Shown in pieces: positions 2,846-33,518 of a stretch of 44,687 nucleotides of DNA (positions within the stretch are counted from its first letter, which is position 1; the number at the start of each line of letters is the position of its first letter). A program made the translations under genes and the position numbers. Below the pieces are notes generated by a model, which saw nothing but the letters and a program-made list of their open reading frames with translations, had not been told where the DNA came from and did no database searches. This stretch comes from an uncultured Desulfovibrionaceae bacterium (GTDB lineage: Bacteria; Desulfobacterota; Desulfovibrionia; Desulfovibrionales; Desulfovibrionaceae): positions 1 to 44,687 of the forward strand of contig CATJOY010000038.1 in assembly GCA_949741925.1 (NCBI GenBank), in the 5' to 3' direction.

Positions 2846-5548
2846 TTACACCCGGGCCCGCGCGGCCAGACGCTCCCGTTTGGCCTCTTCCTCGCGGCGT
2901 TTCTTTTCCTCTTCTGCCTGGGCCACCACGGTATCCCCGAAGATAAGCAGAATGGGGCTGGCCACAAAGACAGACGACAAGGTGCCGATAATCACGCCGA
3001 TGAACATAATCAGGGCGAAATCATGGATGATGCCGCCGCCGAAAAGCAGAAGTGAACCGACGACAATCAAGGTGGTGCCTGAGGTCAGCACCGTGCGGGA
3101 GAGCGTTTGATTGATGCTGCGGTTGATGGTTTCCGAGAGACGAAGCCCTTTAGCGTTTTTCAGGTTTTCGCGAATCCGGTCAAAGACGATGATGGTATCA
3201 TTCAAGGAGTAGCCCAGAATCGTCAAGAGCGCGGCGATAATGGTCAGGTCAAACTCTTTGCCCATCATGGCAAAGAGGCCGACTGTGATGAAAATATCAT
3301 GGAAGATGGAGACCAACGCCCCCAACGCGTAGACGAGTTTCAGCTTCCAGCAGAGAATCAGCGTGATGATAGAAGCGGCCAGAACCAGCAGCGCCTTGCT
3401 GAGGCCCGCCATATCCAGCAGGTACATACCGGCAAGAAGAGCGGCGGCCATAAGCCCGGCCACAAACCAACGCTGTTCAAATCTGCCTGAAATGTAAATG
3501 GCAATGAACAGGGTTGCGAAGTACATGGCTTCCACGGCCTTCGAGCGCAAGTCGGCGCCGACCTTGGGCCCGACGCTCTCCAGGCGTACAATATCGTAGG
3601 CTATGCCCGGCAGGCCGCTTGCCAAAGCATTGTCGATGGATTCCCGGATTTTGGCCGTGGTATCCTCGGCTGTGGAGGAGACGCGGATCAGGAAGGTTTG
3701 CCCGTCATCATCCCCGAAGCGCTGCACAACCAGACCCGACAGACCGGTTGCCTCCAAGGAGGTTTTTACCTGTTCCTCGTTAACAGAATCCTTGAATTGC
3801 ACCTGGGCTATCGAGCCGCCGGCAAAATCGATACCGTATTTTAGCCCGCCGTGCATGATGATCGGAACAAGGCAGGCGACAAAGACCAACACGGCCGCGA
3901 CACAGTAAATTTTCCTGAGCCCGAGGAAGTTGAAGTGCAGAGTATTCGGAATCAGCGCCAAGCCCATGTTGAGCTTGCGGCCCTTGGCGCCCATCCAGAG
4001 ATCATAAATAATGTGGGAAACGAAGACTGCTGTGAACATTGAGGCAATGATGCCCAGGATCAGAGTAACGGCAAATCCCCTAATAGGGCCGGTGCCGAAC
4101 TGGTAGAGTACCACAGCAGCGATGACTGTGGTCAGGTTGGAATCGACGATGGTCAGCGTGGCCCTTGAAAAGCCCGTGCGGATGGCCGCTATGGGGCTAA
4201 GCCCGTTGCGCAGTTCTTCGCGTATGCGTTCAAAAATCAGCACGTTGGCGTCTACGGCCATGCCCAGGGTCAGTACAATGCCCGCAATGCCGGGCAGGGT
4301 TAACGTGGCCCCGAAGGCGGCCATGCCCGCAAGGATGAATACAACATCCAGAACCAGCATCAGGTTGGCAATCAGGCCGGAGATGCCGTAATACACGGCC
4401 ATGAAGAGCATCACAACGATACCGCCGATAACGGCGGCCTTGATACCTTGATCAATGGATTGCTGGCCAAGGGAGGGGCCGACAGTACGCTCTTCATCGA
4501 TGCTTACCGGAGCCGGGAGCGAGCCCGCCCTGAGTACCAGAGCCAGATCTTGGGCCTCCGCAGCGGTAAAGTTGCCGGTGATGCTGGCTTGGCCGCCGCC
4601 GATCTTGGCCTGGATAACCGGGGCGGAGTGTACTTTGCCATCCAACACGATGGCCATGCGGCGGCCGATGTTTTCACCGGTTACCCGTTCAAAAAGGCCG
4701 GCGCCCTGGTTATTGAAGGAAAGGCGAACATAGGGTTGGTTGTTGGTGGAATCTATAGCCGGGGCGGCATCGGAGATATATTCCCCGGTGAGCATGGCTT
4801 CCTTATCCACCAGAATCGGTTGATCAGGAGCGCCGGCCTTGCCTTTTATGGGCAGGATCTCGGTTCCCGGCGGAATAAGCCCGCGGGCAATGCGTTCGGC
4901 ATCAACATCGTCGCGCACCAGTTTGAATTCCAAATGCGCTGTCTGGCCTACAATCTGGATAGCCCGGTTGGCGTCTTTGATTCCCGGAAGTTGGATGATG
5001 ATCCGGTTATTCTCCGGCTGCTCGCGGATATCCGGCTCGGCAACGCCAAACTGGTCGATGCGGTTGCGGATGGCGGTGAGCACCTGCCCGAGGGCCATAC
5101 GAGTCATTTCCGCTCGCTCCTGCGGCCTGAACGAGGCAATATAGCGTAATCTGCCTTCCTCGATGCTTTGCGGCGGATCAAGTACGAGCTGAGGGAAATA
5201 CTTGGCCATCATTTCCTCTAGGGCTGCCCTTTGTTCGGGCCGCGCTAAGGTGAATTCCAGCTTTTCCCCGGCCACCACGCGCGGGCGCAGAATCAGAATA
5301 TTTTCATCGCGTCCCACGGCGCGGATATTCTGGCCCGCCTGGACCAGAGAGTTTCCAATGGCCTTATCCACATCCACACTGAGGGTCAGGTGAATGCCGC
5401 CTACAAGATCCAGCCCCAGATTGATGCGGGAATCAGGAAGAAAGCGGGTCAGCGCGGAATTGGGCGCGAAGCCGGGCAAAAGGTAGATCAGAGAAAGAAA
5501 GATCGCCAGCACGGTGACGCCTATTCTCCAGCTCAGGCCTTGTCTCAT
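2846..5548 (-). CDS. secDF: Protein translocase SecD-SecF fusion
   Basis: A 900-residue fusion of the two RND-like subunits that use the proton motive force to pull exported proteins through SecYEG and release them into the periplasm. SecD occupies about residues 1-530: an N-terminal membrane segment (VLAIFLSLIYLLPGF), the large periplasmic domain with GLDLVGGIHLTL, and helices carrying LTLGMAVDANVLIFERIREEL. SecF follows from about residue 540 (RKIYCVAAVLVFVACL, YGIDFAGGSIAQVQF, LTILGYSLNDTIIVFDRIREN). No stop separates the halves. The ATG at 5548 has a TGGAG ribosome binding site, and yajC lies 145 nt upstream on the same strand, so the pair is probably one operon. SecD and SecF are separate in many bacteria, so the fusion is mildly unusual but known. 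Confidence 0.97.
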   Translation of the reverse strand: MRQGLSWRIGVTVLAIFLSLIYLLPGFAPNSALTRFLPDSRINLGLDLVGGIHLTLSVDVDKAIGNSLVQAGQNIRAVGRDENILILRPRVVAGEKLEFTLARPEQRAALEEMMAKYFPQLVLDPPQSIEEGRLRYIASFRPQERAEMTRMALGQVLTAIRNRIDQFGVAEPDIREQPENNRIIIQLPGIKDANRAIQIVGQTAHLEFKLVRDDVDAERIARGLIPPGTEILPIKGKAGAPDQPILVDKEAMLTGEYISDAAPAIDSTNNQPYVRLSFNNQGAGLFERVTGENIGRRMAIVLDGKVHSAPVIQAKIGGGQASITGNFTAAEAQDLALVLRAGSLPAPVSIDEERTVGPSLGQQSIDQGIKAAVIGGIVVMLFMAVYYGISGLIANLMLVLDVVFILAGMAAFGATLTLPGIAGIVLTLGMAVDANVLIFERIREELRNGLSPIAAIRTGFSRATLTIVDSNLTTVIAAVVLYQFGTGPIRGFAVTLILGIIASMFTAVFVSHIIYDLWMGAKGRKLNMGLALIPNTLHFNFLGLRKIYCVAAVLVFVACLVPIIMHGGLKYGIDFAGGSIAQVQFKDSVNEEQVKTSLEATGLSGLVVQRFGDDDGQTFLIRVSSTAEDTTAKIRESIDNALASGLPGIAYDIVRLESVGPKVGADLRSKAVEAMYFATLFIAIYISGRFEQRWFVAGLMAAALLAGMYLLDMAGLSKALLVLAASIITLILCWKLKLVYALGALVSIFHDIFITVGLFAMMGKEFDLTIIAALLTILGYSLNDTIIVFDRIRENLKNAKGLRLSETINRSINQTLSRTVLTSGTTLIVVGSLLLFGGGIIHDFALIMFIGVIIGTLSSVFVASPILLIFGDTVVAQAEEEKKRREEEAKRERLAARARV

Positions 5549-6161: not shown

Positions 6162-6410
6162 GGTTCCTCCGGAAATTGCGCTGTGCGCGTAACGTTATGA
6201 ACAAAACAGAATTTCCTAACTCGGTCTTGAGAAAACTTCAATGGATTTCTTCTCCGGAGCGGGGGAGCCCTCCCCTTGGAGGGATGGTTCCGGCAGTCTT
6301 CAGCGGGGCGGCTCCCGGCGGGCAGCGCTGCGCTGTTGCGGCATCGATTGGAGCGGCTTTTGTGTTGGGATACCGATGAGCTTGAGCCGATACTTTTATC
6401 CAACGCAGGG
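6162..6410. other. Spacer between divergent yajC and the Cys-rich gene
   Basis: About 250 bp with no supportable gene. It should contain the yajC promoter on the minus strand, but I could not identify convincing -35/-10 boxes. A GC-rich dyad (around GCCCTCCCCTTGGAGGG, 6268-6284) is present. Confidence 0.4.
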
Positions 6411-6439
6411 TTGCCTTGGCAGCGGCAAGTGACTATGCT
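6411..6439 (+). promoter_or_regulatory. Sigma-70-type promoter of the 57-residue Cys-rich gene
   Basis: TTGCCT (6411-6416), a 17-nt spacer and TATGCT (6434-6439). Transcription would begin near 6446, leaving a leader of about 20 nt that carries the GGAGG ribosome binding site. Promoter, small gene and terminator together form a self-contained unit. Confidence 0.55.
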
Positions 6440-6464
6440 GTAAGAAAAATAATTGGAGGTTGCT

Positions 6465-6638
6465 ATGAGCGATAAAAATGAACCGACTCCCCTCTGCGGC
6501 AACACCGTCGGGCATGCCCATCCGGGAGGCCGGCGCTGCTGTGGACGTCCTTTATCAGAAAAATGTTCTCCCGAGGAAGAAGCCGCTAAGACCAACGCCC
6601 ATGGCGAAAAGAGCTGCTGCAAGGGCAAGCACTCCTGA
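6465..6638 (+). CDS. Small Cys/His-rich protein of unknown function
   Basis: A 57-residue protein that I do not recognise. It holds six cysteines (LCG, RRCCG, KCS, SCCK) and three histidines (two in GHAHPGG, one in NAHGEK) in a very hydrophilic chain with no signal peptide or membrane segment. Paired CC motifs with His suggest metal binding or metal buffering, which is inference only. The ATG at 6465 has GGAGG seven bases upstream, a sigma-70-type promoter precedes it, and a strong terminator follows at 6722-6755. These flanking signals are the best argument that it is a real monocistronic gene and not a chance ORF. Confidence 0.7.
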   Translation: MSDKNEPTPLCGNTVGHAHPGGRRCCGRPLSEKCSPEEEAAKTNAHGEKSCCKGKHS

Positions 6639-6721
6639 GTATTCCCAAGAGGCCGAAGTTTGCCCTAGGCCCTCTTGAGGGTATCGAGCTGTCTAAGAGG
6701 AGTATAAACGCTCGAATATCA

Positions 6722-6755
6722 AAGCCAGGCAAAAAAGTAGATTTTTGCCTGGCTT
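6722..6755 (+). terminator. Rho-independent terminator after the Cys-rich gene
   Basis: AAGCCAGGCAAAAA and its exact complement form a 14-bp stem with a 6-nt loop. The A/T-runs lie inside the stem, so it can work in both directions between the convergent genes ending at 6638 (+) and 6889 (-). Confidence 0.85.
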
Positions 6756-30148: not shown

Positions 30149-30194
30149 GAGACAGTGCAACGATGATTATCACATCTGTGCACAGCGAGTGAAG

Positions 30195-30296
30195 GCAGCG
30201 GGAGAGAGTTCCCCGGGGCGGGCGGCAGGCTCGCCGGGAGAAACGCCGAAGGGGCAAGGCCAAGGTAGCGGTCGAAACTCTCAGGCACCCAGGACT
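30195..30296 (+). promoter_or_regulatory. Glycine riboswitch (single aptamer)
   Basis: The core shows the invariant glycine-aptamer segments: P1 5' strand GAGAGTT (30204-30210), the CCGAAGGGGCAAGG segment (30246-30259), P1 3' strand AACTCTC (30276-30282), and the trailing CAGGCACCCAGGAC (30282-30295). Glycine riboswitches are often tandem, but no second CCGAAGGGGCAA-like core is visible on either side; GCCGGA (30299-30304) and TCCGGC (30327-30332) form a stem just downstream that may act as the ghost aptamer or the expression platform. It sits directly in front of the glycine reductase operon, so glycine is likely to switch expression on. Confidence 0.92.
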
Positions 30297-30388
30297 GTTG
30301 CCGGACGCGCCTCTGGATTATGCCCCTTCCGGCGTACGACAGAGCCTAACGAACCATGATGGAAAGAAGAACTCTTTCGGGTGTTGTT

Positions 30389-30886
30389 ATGCGTCGTATG
30401 CTGCTTATCACCAACAATCGTCTGTTCTTCGGGCTTTGCCGCCCGGGGTTGTCTGTGGTTGCGGCTCTTGAGGGCTGCAACGATGCATCCACCCCCCTGA
30501 CCTCGCTGGATGTTGTTCGTATTGCGCGGGATACGATTCACCGCGGTTGGGTTCTCGCGCACCATCCTCTTTACGGCAACGTCAGGCCACGCCTCCAGCC
30601 TTTCCGGACCATTCTGCTGCTGGAGCCCGAGAGATTCGTGGACGGCAGGCCTGAACCCGATCTTCTCTCCCTTCATCTTATTTCCGAAGCCATGACCGTG
30701 TACGAGTCCGAACGGGAGTCTCTGGCCCTGGTCGATGCCGTGCCGGAATCCCTGGCTCGGGATTGCGCGTTTCTGGACGCAGAATTGATGAAAGAAACTT
30801 TGGCTCAGGCCGGTGTGCCTGCAACCTGGTCTTCGGACCGCACCATAACCTGTTGTCGCGGACAACGAGAAGGGGAACGATTGTGA
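30389..30886 (+). CDS. grdX: GrdX family protein of the glycine reductase operon
   Basis: A protein of about 165 residues matching GrdX, the small protein of unknown role at the front of many grd operons. The MLLITNN start strand and the block VLAHHPLYGNVRPRLQPFRTILLL correspond to the conserved THPLxGxVxPxxxPYxS region. It is longer than the usual 110-130 residues because of an extended C-terminus (from about residue 130) that overlaps the upstream part of the grdE frame. The start is ambiguous among 30356, 30359, 30389 and 30398; none has a clear ribosome binding site, perhaps because access is controlled by the riboswitch. Its stop overlaps the grdE GTG (GTGA). Confidence 0.8.
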   Translation: MRRMLLITNNRLFFGLCRPGLSVVAALEGCNDASTPLTSLDVVRIARDTIHRGWVLAHHPLYGNVRPRLQPFRTILLLEPERFVDGRPEPDLLSLHLISEAMTVYESERESLALVDAVPESLARDCAFLDAELMKETLAQAGVPATWSSDRTITCCRGQREGERL

Positions 30887-32187
30887 AACTGGAATTGCAC
30901 AGAATTCGCATCAGCAAGCTGGAGTTCGGGAGCTCCACCGGCGTGCGGAACGGCGTGCTGACCGTCAACAAGGACGAACTGGAAAAGTTCCTCCTGGAAG
31001 ACGAGCGCCTTGCTGGGGTTTCGCTGGATGTAGCCCATCCCGGCGAGAGCGTACGCATCCTGCCGGTAAAAGATGCGGTGGAGCCTCGCTGCAAACTTTC
31101 CGAAGGCAATGAGGTCTTTCCCGGCTTTATCGGGGATGTGGACCCCGTGGGCGAAGGAAAAACCTTGGTCCTCGAAGGTATGGCCGTGCTGACCACGGGC
31201 CGTTTGGTGGCCCCCCAGGAAGGCATTGTCGATATGTCCGGCCCTGGCGCCGAGTACACGCCTTTCTCCCAAACCTGCAACCTTGTGGTGGTGCTGGAGC
31301 CTTCCGAGGAGGTGAAGCTGCACGAGGCCGAGTCGGTCTGCCGCATCGCCGGCCTCAAGGCCGCCCACTATCTCGCCTCCCGCTGCAAGGAGGCTGTCCT
31401 GAGCCAGGCTGTTGCGGCCGACACGGTCGAAACTTTTGACGCCCCGGCTCTGACCGAGGCTATGCACGCCTACCCGAATCTCCCCAAGGTGGCGTATATC
31501 TATATGCTCCAATCTCAGGGCCTGCTGCACGATACCTATGTTTACGGCGTGGACGCCAAAAAAATACTGCCTACCCTGATCAGCCCTACCGAAACCATGG
31601 ATGGGGCCATCATCTCGGGCAACTGCGTTTCCGCTTGCGATAAGAACAGCACCTACGTTCACCAGAACAACCCTGTTATCAAGCAGCTCTATGCCCGGCA
31701 CGGCAAGGAGCTGAACTTTGTCGGCGTTATCATTACCAATGAGAACGTCACGCTGGCCGATAAAAAACGCTCTTCCTCCTACGCGGTCAAACTGGCGCGC
31801 ATGCTCGGCGTAGAAGCTTGCGTTATTTCAGAAGAAGGCTTCGGCAACCCGGATGCCGATCTGGTTATGAACTGCTGGAAGGCCGAGCGTGCCGGCATTA
31901 AAACCGTGCTGGTTACCGATGAGTACGCCGGTCGGGATGGCTCCAGCCAATCCCTGGCCGATTCCTGCCCTGAGGGGAACGCCTGTGTCACCGCCGGCAA
32001 CGCCAACATGATGATCACCCTGCCGCCCATGGAAAAGGTGATCGGCGACGCGCCTAAGGCAGATATCATCGCCGGCGGATTCTTCGGCTCTTTACGCGAA
32101 GACGGCAGCATGGAAGTGGAAATCCAGGCCATTCTCGGCGCCACCAACGAACTGGGCTTTACCCGGCTCGGCGCGTACACCATTTGA
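30883..32187 (+). CDS. grdE: Glycine reductase protein B, alpha/beta proprotein (GrdE)
   Basis: A 434-residue proprotein that is cleaved at an Asn-Cys bond into two subunits, the new N-terminal Cys becoming the pyruvoyl group that binds glycine as a Schiff base. The site ISGNCVSACDKNSTYVHQNN is intact, with Cys248 the expected residue. The start chosen is GTG at 30883, with GAAGGGG about 7 nt upstream, because the conserved N-terminus MKLELHRIRI starts there; the frame continues 40 codons further upstream only by chance. The pair GrdE/GrdB, as opposed to GrdG/F or GrdI/H, makes glycine the substrate over sarcosine or betaine. Assigning substrate class from sequence similarity recalled from family knowledge is reasonably, not fully, certain. 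Confidence 0.95.
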   Translation: MKLELHRIRISKLEFGSSTGVRNGVLTVNKDELEKFLLEDERLAGVSLDVAHPGESVRILPVKDAVEPRCKLSEGNEVFPGFIGDVDPVGEGKTLVLEGMAVLTTGRLVAPQEGIVDMSGPGAEYTPFSQTCNLVVVLEPSEEVKLHEAESVCRIAGLKAAHYLASRCKEAVLSQAVAADTVETFDAPALTEAMHAYPNLPKVAYIYMLQSQGLLHDTYVYGVDAKKILPTLISPTETMDGAIISGNCVSACDKNSTYVHQNNPVIKQLYARHGKELNFVGVIITNENVTLADKKRSSSYAVKLARMLGVEACVISEEGFGNPDADLVMNCWKAERAGIKTVLVTDEYAGRDGSSQSLADSCPEGNACVTAGNANMMITLPPMEKVIGDAPKADIIAGGFFGSLREDGSMEVEIQAILGATNELGFTRLGAYTI

Positions 32188-32210: not shown

Positions 32211-33518
32211 ATGGCCTACCGAGTTGTACATTACATTAACCAGTTTTTCGCAGGCATCGGCGGGGAGGATAAAGCCGACCACGAGCTTGAGGTCCGCGAA
32301 GGCGTTGTCGGCCCGGGCCTGGCGCTGGCCAATGCCCTCAAGGGAGAAGCCGAGATTGTAGCCACCATCATTTGCGGCGATAACTTCGCGGCTATGCATT
32401 CCGAGCAGGTCTGCGCCGCTGTGGAAAACGCCTGCAAACAATATCAGGCTGATCTCTTGCTGGCAGGGCCTGCCTTTAACGCCGGCCGCTACGGCACCGC
32501 CTGCGGCATGGTTTCTTCCTTTGTTCAGAAGAACGTGGGCATTCCCGCCGTCACCGCCATGTACAAGGAAAACCCCGGCGTCGATATCTATAAAAAAGAT
32601 CTCTACATCGTCGAAACCGGCGATTCCGCCCGGGGCATGGGCACAGCCGTTCCGGCCATGGCGAAACTGGCCCTGGCCCTGCTCAAGGGGGAACAGCCGT
32701 CCAAGGAACACGGCTATATCGAGCGCGGCGTGCGGGTGAATACCTTTTATGACACCTGTGGGGCTGAGCGGGCTGTGACGATGCTTTTGAAGAAGATCAA
32801 GGGCGAGCCCTTTACCACTGAGTACCCCATGCCGGTCTTTGACCGTGTGGAACCCCGCCCCGCGGTTAAGGATATGAAGAGCGCCACTATCGCTCTGGTT
32901 ACCTCCGGCGGTATTGTGCCCAAAGGCAACCCGGATCATATCGCCGCCTCCAGCGCCCAGAACTATGGCGAATACAGCCTGAGCGGCATAAATGACCTGA
33001 CGGCCGATAAACACCAGACCGCCCACGGCGGGTATGATCAGACCTATGCCAACCAGGATGCTGACCGGGTCTTGCCCGTGGACGTGCTGCGCGACCTGGA
33101 AAAGGAAGGCGTTATCGGCAAGCTTCATGAAATGTGGTACGCCACGGTGGGCAACGGCACCTCGGTAGCCAACGCCCGCAGGTTTGGTCAGGAAATAGGG
33201 CAGAAACTGAAAGATGCCCAGGTACAGGCGGTTATCCTGACCTCCACCTGAGGAACCTGCACGCGTTGCGGTGCAACGCTCGCAAAGGCTATTGAAGAAA
33301 CCGCTGATATCCCCGTCGTCCACATGGCGACTATTGTGCCCATTTCCCTGAGCGTCGGGGCCAACAGGATCATCCCGACCGTCTCCATTCCCCACCCGCT
33401 AGGTAATCCCACGCTGGACCCCGCAGCAGAAAAGCAACTTCGGCGTCATCTGGTAGAAAAGGCCCTTAACGCCTTGCAGACTGATGTTACCGAGCAGACA
33501 GTCTTTTCGGGCGAATAG
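32211..33518 (+). CDS. grdB: Glycine reductase protein B, gamma subunit; selenoprotein (GrdB)
   Basis: 435 residues when the TGA at 33249-33251 is read as selenocysteine (residue 347). The flanking residues are TSTUGTCTRCG, the known GrdB active-site context, and the frame then continues for 88 codons (PVVHMATIVPISLSVGANRI, VSIPHPLGNP, EQTVFSGE) to the TAG at 33516, giving the family's normal length. The Sec selenol attacks the Schiff-base-bound glycine to form a carboxymethyl intermediate passed to GrdA. The ATG at 32211 has GGAGA upstream and is 23 nt after grdE. An ordinary reading would end the gene at 33251 and lose the C-terminal fifth. Confidence 0.96.
33249..33279 (+). promoter_or_regulatory. 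grdB UGA codon and bacterial SECIS hairpin
   Basis: GCGTTGC (33263-33269), loop GGT, GCAACGC (33273-33279): a perfect 7-bp stem. Its loop guanines lie 18-19 nt after the UGA, within the range seen for bacterial SECIS elements recognised by SelB. Confidence 0.75.

Follow-up and report, generated by a model that had tools for sequence, protein, structure and literature searches.

As judged from the comparison of homologues, the ORF at positions 6465-6638 of the window (the whole 44,687-nucleotide stretch analysed here, contig CATJOY010000038.1 of an uncultured Desulfovibrionaceae bacterium, assembly GCA_949741925.1) is a real gene of a rare, unnamed family, and its product is tentatively best explained as a mostly unfolded cytosolic peptide whose vicinal Cys pairs would bind a soft metal. 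The peptide family is rare and patchy, occurring in genera g1, g9 and g19 of one bacterial family. The initial annotation had described a stand-alone gene of 57 residues, and this description is borne out: the frame is conserved in homologues under purifying selection, the promoter is present in all four known copies, and the neighbours differ across the three genera. The features of the locus are the following.

6390-6400, + strand: upstream block ATACTTTTATC, separated by 10 nt from the -35 hexamer
6411-6416, + strand: -35 hexamer TTGCCT (TTGCC[A/T] in 4/4 homologues, spacer 17 in all)
6434-6439, + strand: -10 hexamer TATGCT (TAT[G/C][C/T]T in 4/4 homologues)
6455-6459, + strand: Shine-Dalgarno sequence GGAGG, 5 nt before the ATG
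6465-6638 including the stop codon, + strand: gene of the 57-aa Cys/His peptide (translation, homologues, purifying selection)
6513-6566, + strand: codons H17 to C34, HxHPxGRRCCGRPxxEKC, with the first Cys pair and the lone Cys (four-copy alignment)
6603-6632, + strand: codons G47 to H56, GEKSCCKGxH, with the second Cys pair (G47-G54 and H56 invariant in 4/4)
6722-6755, + strand: perfect 14-bp hairpin, a possible transcript 3' end, with no U-tail after the stem

The ORF translates as MSDKNEPTPLCGNTVGHAHPGGRRCCGRPLSEKCSPEEEAAKTNAHGEKSCCKGKHS, in which we count six Cys, as annotated, and four His, where three had been given. Six Cys alone are no evidence for a gene, because, of the window's 126 ORFs that start with ATG and span 40-80 aa, five reach six or more; it is through the conservation of its frame that the ORF counts as one. 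When 99 genomes, including its own, were searched with the window peptide, two strong homologues were obtained, in G049 (E = 8.6e-23) and G009 (E = 6.9e-22), both of genus g9. A three-row profile run against 288 genomes of the bacterial family added G194 of genus g19 (E = 2.1e-22), and a four-row profile run against 348 genomes of the class returned the same four carriers; because only 4/348 carry the gene, it would be dispensable for most relatives. The search that the initial annotation had proposed, with an eye on the CC pairs, yields three further genomes, with both CC pairs in 4/4 copies. An extra class-level match (E = 5.2e-4) contains an in-frame TGA and proved on reading to be a 35-codon stop-free frame, and among 395 genomes sampled evenly across the phylum, 10 matched at E <= 0.01, only the window's own being convincing. 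A pattern scan of genome contigs gave 279 pattern matches and one confirmed relative, which by its sequence is the G049 contig. The profile did not find the peptide in G001, a genome of the same genus that is 54% complete. A match on its contig 119 (E = 0.23, 10.1 bits), a stop-free frame of 53 codons containing HPQGRTACCRPEIWTCSP, has one CC pair only, lies antisense inside a 368-aa ORF that is transporter ATPase-like by eye, and was judged to be chance.

The matching genomes were matched weakly in 51 of 55 cases for the 288 (E = 0.0016 to 0.05), in 9 of 10 for the 395, and in 1 of 5 for the 348. Sixty-seven weak loci were read on both strands, and none has two CC pairs in its best-matching segment. 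Four of them are ORFs of the desulforedoxin (Dx) type (L009, L010, L011 and L028), glycyl radical enzymes account for two more (L048 and L059), and the others were judged chance. Plasmids and phages, searched with the G049 protein as the only query, gave no match, and among viral contigs 25 stretches fit the pattern with no relative among them; carriage by mobile elements is thus unsupported by these searches. No description of the peptide was found in the titles and abstract starts of open-licence PMC papers, among the matches listed, for queries on small or Cys-rich proteins of Desulfovibrio, metallothionein, Hpn/nickel, ArsD, desulforedoxin and CCGRP.

Within the core (alignment columns 18-57), pS between the window copy and those of G049, G009 and G194 is 0.75, 0.75 and 0.91, and pN is 0.11, 0.09 and 0.17, respectively; third codon positions account for 21/30, 20/28 and 25/38 of the core differences, and between G049 and G009, pS is 0.49 and pN 0.04. 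The initial annotation had staked the gene beforehand on a synonymous pattern in relatives, and this is the pattern found: pS lies well above pN and, by these rates, the frame is under purifying selection. Five Cys are invariant in 4/4 copies (C25, C26, C34, C51 and C52, spaced CC-x7-C-x16/17-CC), C11 occurring in the window copy only among the four aligned. Three His are also invariant in 4/4 (H17, H19 and H56), with HxHPxGRR preceding the Cys and H56 near the C terminus. Past residue 4, the invariant positions comprise H17, H19, P20, G22, RRCCGRP and EKCSPE, and further E39, A40, K42, T43, A45, GEKSCCKG and H56; in the H17-C34 stretch, H17, H19, P20, G22-P29 and E32-C34 are invariant in 4/4 and positions 18, 21, 30 and 31 vary. 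The four copies are 57-60 residues long with 4-6 His each. Their GRAVY is about -1.1 to -1.3, hydrophobic residues are few, and no hydrophobic signal segment is seen by eye, given which the peptide is probably cytosolic. In G049 and G009, the copy also overlaps stop-free frames on the opposite strand, about 93-96 codons long.

The annotated promoter, TTGCCT-N17-TATGCT, is present as described. It agrees with the consensus at 8/12 positions (manual count), and a scan for consensus promoters found 0 (shuffles, mean 1.0); it is supported because the same spaced hexamers, with the 17-nt spacer, are kept in 4/4 homologues. The distance from promoter to ATG in the four copies is 25, 28, 28 and 29 nt. 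The GGAGG site is also confirmed, and the relatives have AAGGAGG (G049 and G009) or AAGGAG (G194). The upstream block is identical and in register in G049, shows one change in G009 and is absent from G194; an in-register run of 11 is reached by 1/200000 shuffles, the window/G049 pair having been chosen after the match was seen. This block might be a UP element or a regulator site. In its own genome, ATRCTTTTATC occurs four times versus two for a backwards control, which is no clear enrichment, and a regulon sharing the 11-mer was rejected.

Of the annotated 14-bp terminator, the perfect repeat is there (arms 6722-6735 and 6742-6755; -21.4 kcal/mol, z = -5.98) and the classical terminator is not: because the T run sits within the hairpin stem and CCCTCAATC comes after it, the sequence is not that of a classical intrinsic terminator, and the terminator scan did not list the 6722-6755 hairpin. 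Hairpins lie 3' of all four genes within the folded stretches, and the U tail past them is clean in G049, weaker in G009, and missing in the window and G194. A second, imperfect hairpin is predicted at 6646-6677 (+ strand), directly past the stop codon. The idea that the downstream hairpin is a genome repeat was dropped, its genome matches being itself and its own palindrome only.

The flanking genes differ among the three genera. The neighbours of the gene are yajC (divergent) and a DRTGG/AAA_26 gene (convergent) in the window, tRNA_edit and tRNA_SAD genes in G009 (and, by eye, in G049), and RND pump and HEPN genes in G194; in G001, the similarity to the window in yajC stops near 6248 and is followed by an ORF that by eye is transporter-like. 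Among the neighbours scanned in the three genera, no metal-homeostasis gene, redox gene or ars gene was recognised. Adjoining yajC in the window, a single 900-aa ORF (2846-5548, - strand) looks by eye like SecD and SecF fused.

That no family is recognisable, as first annotated, also holds after searches of Pfam, NCBIfam, PHROGs and PADLOC, which gave no convincing match. The window copy hit 0 families in Pfam and NCBIfam and nothing in the PDB; the four members together gave in Pfam only DUF6769 at E = 0.4, from one non-window member, and no match in PHROGs, NCBIfam or PADLOC. AlphaFold2 gave no confident fold (pLDDT 53, pTM 0.29) from an alignment of only four sequences.

Soft-metal thiolate binding fits these data best because of the invariant CC-x7-C-x16/17-CC, the His before and after it, and the very hydrophilic, short peptide. 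The metal-binding or redox-buffer peptide put forward in the initial annotation is thus a plausible candidate. The single-gene unit would make a small, very hydrophilic, probably unfolded cytosolic peptide, whose two vicinal Cys pairs, third Cys and flanking His would together enclose a thiophilic metal, with Zn, Cu(I), Ni and metalloids as candidates, and the bound metal may then be buffered or handed over in a metallothionein-like or Hpn-like mode; the lack of a fold, the metal binding, the choice of metal and the buffering role are what we infer here. In favour of such a peptide, the five Cys and H17, H19 and H56 do not vary among the four copies while residues 5-16 drift, and between the window and G009 the matched core is more conserved (88% identity, 42 residues) than YajC of the same genomes (61%, 120 residues). 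The very low GRAVY, the few hydrophobic residues and the lack of a confident predicted fold point the same way. Against it, no metal-homeostasis neighbour was recognised, although the RND pump of G194 could export metal, and the gene is present in only 4/348 genomes of the class.

Several known peptides invite comparison. Bacterial metallothioneins (SmtA/BmtA, MymT) are small Cys/His peptides holding soft metals; the peptide resembles them in being small and in bearing Cys and His, but has no metallothionein model match in Pfam or NCBIfam. Like Hpn, Hpn-2 and the C-terminal extension of HspA, the nickel binders of Helicobacter, it is small and combines Cys pairs with His. However, Hpn is described as having 60 residues, two Cys pairs and 28 His (PMC4671568), whereas our peptides have 4-6 His in 57-60 residues, so that a very His-rich, Hpn-type composition is seen in none of the four copies, though CC pairs are in 4/4. 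The same paper describes the Cys pairs of the small Hpn proteins as often involved in metal binding, and in another Cys95, Cys96 and Cys102 of an ArsR respond to trivalent metalloids (PMC2440759); both are analogies only. The vicinal Cys pair with a further Cys is like the metalloid sites of ArsD and ArsR as described there, but ArsD has 124 residues by that description, and no ars gene was recognised among the neighbours scanned. If the peptide does bind metal, this deltaproteobacterial family would have among its small proteins a compact set of vicinal-Cys ligands under a conserved promoter of its own. The peptide is also a clean test piece, with four natural variants, five invariant Cys, and 57-60 residues that are easily synthesised.

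It also counts against the metal reading that the non-ligand invariants (GRR, GRP, EK, SPE and GEKS) suggest a partner or a fold beyond a loose metal sponge. It is accordingly conceivable, although we doubt it, that the peptide is a small adaptor or inhibitor, with a single structural Zn (Cys4 or Cys3His) at the centre of its fold and with GRR, GRP and EKCSPE as the surface that binds a partner protein. Non-ligand residues as invariant as the Cys, and five conserved Cys, which should be enough for one tetrahedral site, are consistent with this, but AlphaFold2 offers no confident fold from its four sequences and no conserved neighbour points to a partner. A thiol redox or sulfane-sulfur buffer, in which the vicinal Cys pairs would cycle through dithiol, disulfide and persulfide, is unlikely: the two invariant CC pairs and the probable cytosolic location would suit it, whereas a thioredoxin-like CxxC is missing, the invariant His would be unneeded, and the scanned neighbours include no recognised redox gene. 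The translated regulator envisaged in the initial annotation, taken here as a leader or regulatory RNA with an incidental peptide, is disfavoured and has the lowest probability of all readings considered. Despite the short ORF and the strong hairpins downstream, it is the protein sequence that is under selection, and Rfam has nothing at the peptide locus. Furthermore, the gene that follows in the window is a convergent one, so no same-strand gene lies downstream to be regulated, and the G049 unit is closed ahead of the next gene by a hairpin whose tail is U-rich.

Two resemblances to known proteins, to Dx and to glycyl radical enzymes, share the CC-G-x-P stretch and were both tested after being noticed; they cannot both mean descent, and on these alignments we take neither descent as shown. 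Centre I of desulforedoxin is given as CX2CX15CC (PMC3116461). Like the Dx domain (PF06397), the peptide has a CCGxP motif, and the window copy alone also LCGN; unlike it, the peptides lack the first Cys (present in 0/4) and, in 3/4, the second (present in 1/4), so that with CC in 4/4 the full CX2CX15CC ligand set occurs in 0 of the four copies. PF06397 was not listed for the four members at E <= 10, a range in which the HMMER filters drop most matches above 0.1, and membership in it was rejected. A Dx plus linker profile, built on 25 Dx sequences of 23 genomes, gives the window copy 14.3 bits with LCGN-V..H.GG..CCGxP.....AAK aligned, a score reached by 0, 0 and 1 of 3000 shuffles under three shuffling rules in this post hoc test. 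Dx-type ORFs are among its best weak matches, and the family profile without the window copy gives a median of 4.1 bits for the 25 Dx ORFs and of -0.8 for skeleton-kept shuffles. These results argue for a degenerate Dx-domain descendant of desulfoferrodoxin in which the CxxC ligands are gone and the function has changed. We nevertheless regard this as very unlikely, since the scores are only 6.8 bits for G009 (12-147 of 3000 shuffles reach it), 4.2 for G049 (75-344) and 2.5 for G194 (223-895), LCGN is absent from these three copies, an overlapping segment resembles a glycyl radical enzyme about equally, and a Dx domain is present elsewhere in all four carrier genomes. In a variant, a rebuilt Dx would have lost the CxxC half of its FeS4 site and gained a second vicinal pair, the two Cys-Cys pairs holding Fe or Zn, a ligand set that we know of in no named family; its odds, slightly lowered because the same segment also resembles the glycyl-radical-enzyme segment, are slimmer still.

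The other resemblance is to the pre-glycyl segment next to PF02901. In the relatives' loci L168, L161-L163 and L167, LPSGRxAGRPLADGCSPSQG stands directly before the C-terminal domain of one type of glycyl radical enzyme. The peptide counterpart, HPxGRRCCGRPLSEKCSP, is a close likeness with its PxGRRxxGRPLxxxCSP-like run, but the peptide is one residue longer at the CC and lacks the catalytic domain; no PF02901 or PFL-like domain was listed in the peptides, and as 57-aa peptides without it they were rejected as members of these enzymes. The segment profile was built from 24 segments of 31 loci (six enzymes lack PxGR and one locus a frame); the L168 segment in it is wrongly cut and the L079 segment shifted, which counts against what it yields: 11.2 bits for G049, 7.7 for the window, 7.5 for G194 and 5.3 for G009, reached by 0-1, 1-2, 0-1 and 7-10 of 3000 shuffles, respectively, post hoc and for copies that, having one core in common, are not independent. 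Because this weak resemblance runs through all four copies, we keep as a rival, at odds below either Dx reading, a peptide that mimics the segment (PxGRxxGxPLxxxxSP) or is a fragment of it and that would act on such an enzyme or its activase. One enzyme type (L160-L163 and L167) scores 10.6-15.4 bits at the segment, glycyl radical enzyme matches occur in 5/51 weak family genomes, and the sole PDB match of the family profile is hydroxyproline dehydratase (E = 0.098). However, of the 30 enzymes read whole, 24 have a score of <2 bits with the peptide profile or none, PF02901 has 0 matches in the window genome (98% complete) and in G049 (74%), and the enzymes read from the carriers with matches (L079 of G009, which has two, and L081 of G194, which has one) are not of the well-matching type. 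The soft-metal peptide remains our preferred, if tentative, reading.

Elsewhere in the window, a glycine riboswitch aptamer (RF00504, 48.8 bits) lies at 30189-30307 (+ strand), upstream of two ORFs (30763-32187 and from 32184) that we take to be GrdE and GrdB of the glycine-reductase type. The GrdB-like frame has an in-frame TGA at 33249-33251 (+ strand), reading STUGTCTRCG if it encodes selenocysteine, and continues past it for 88 more codons to a TAG at 33516.
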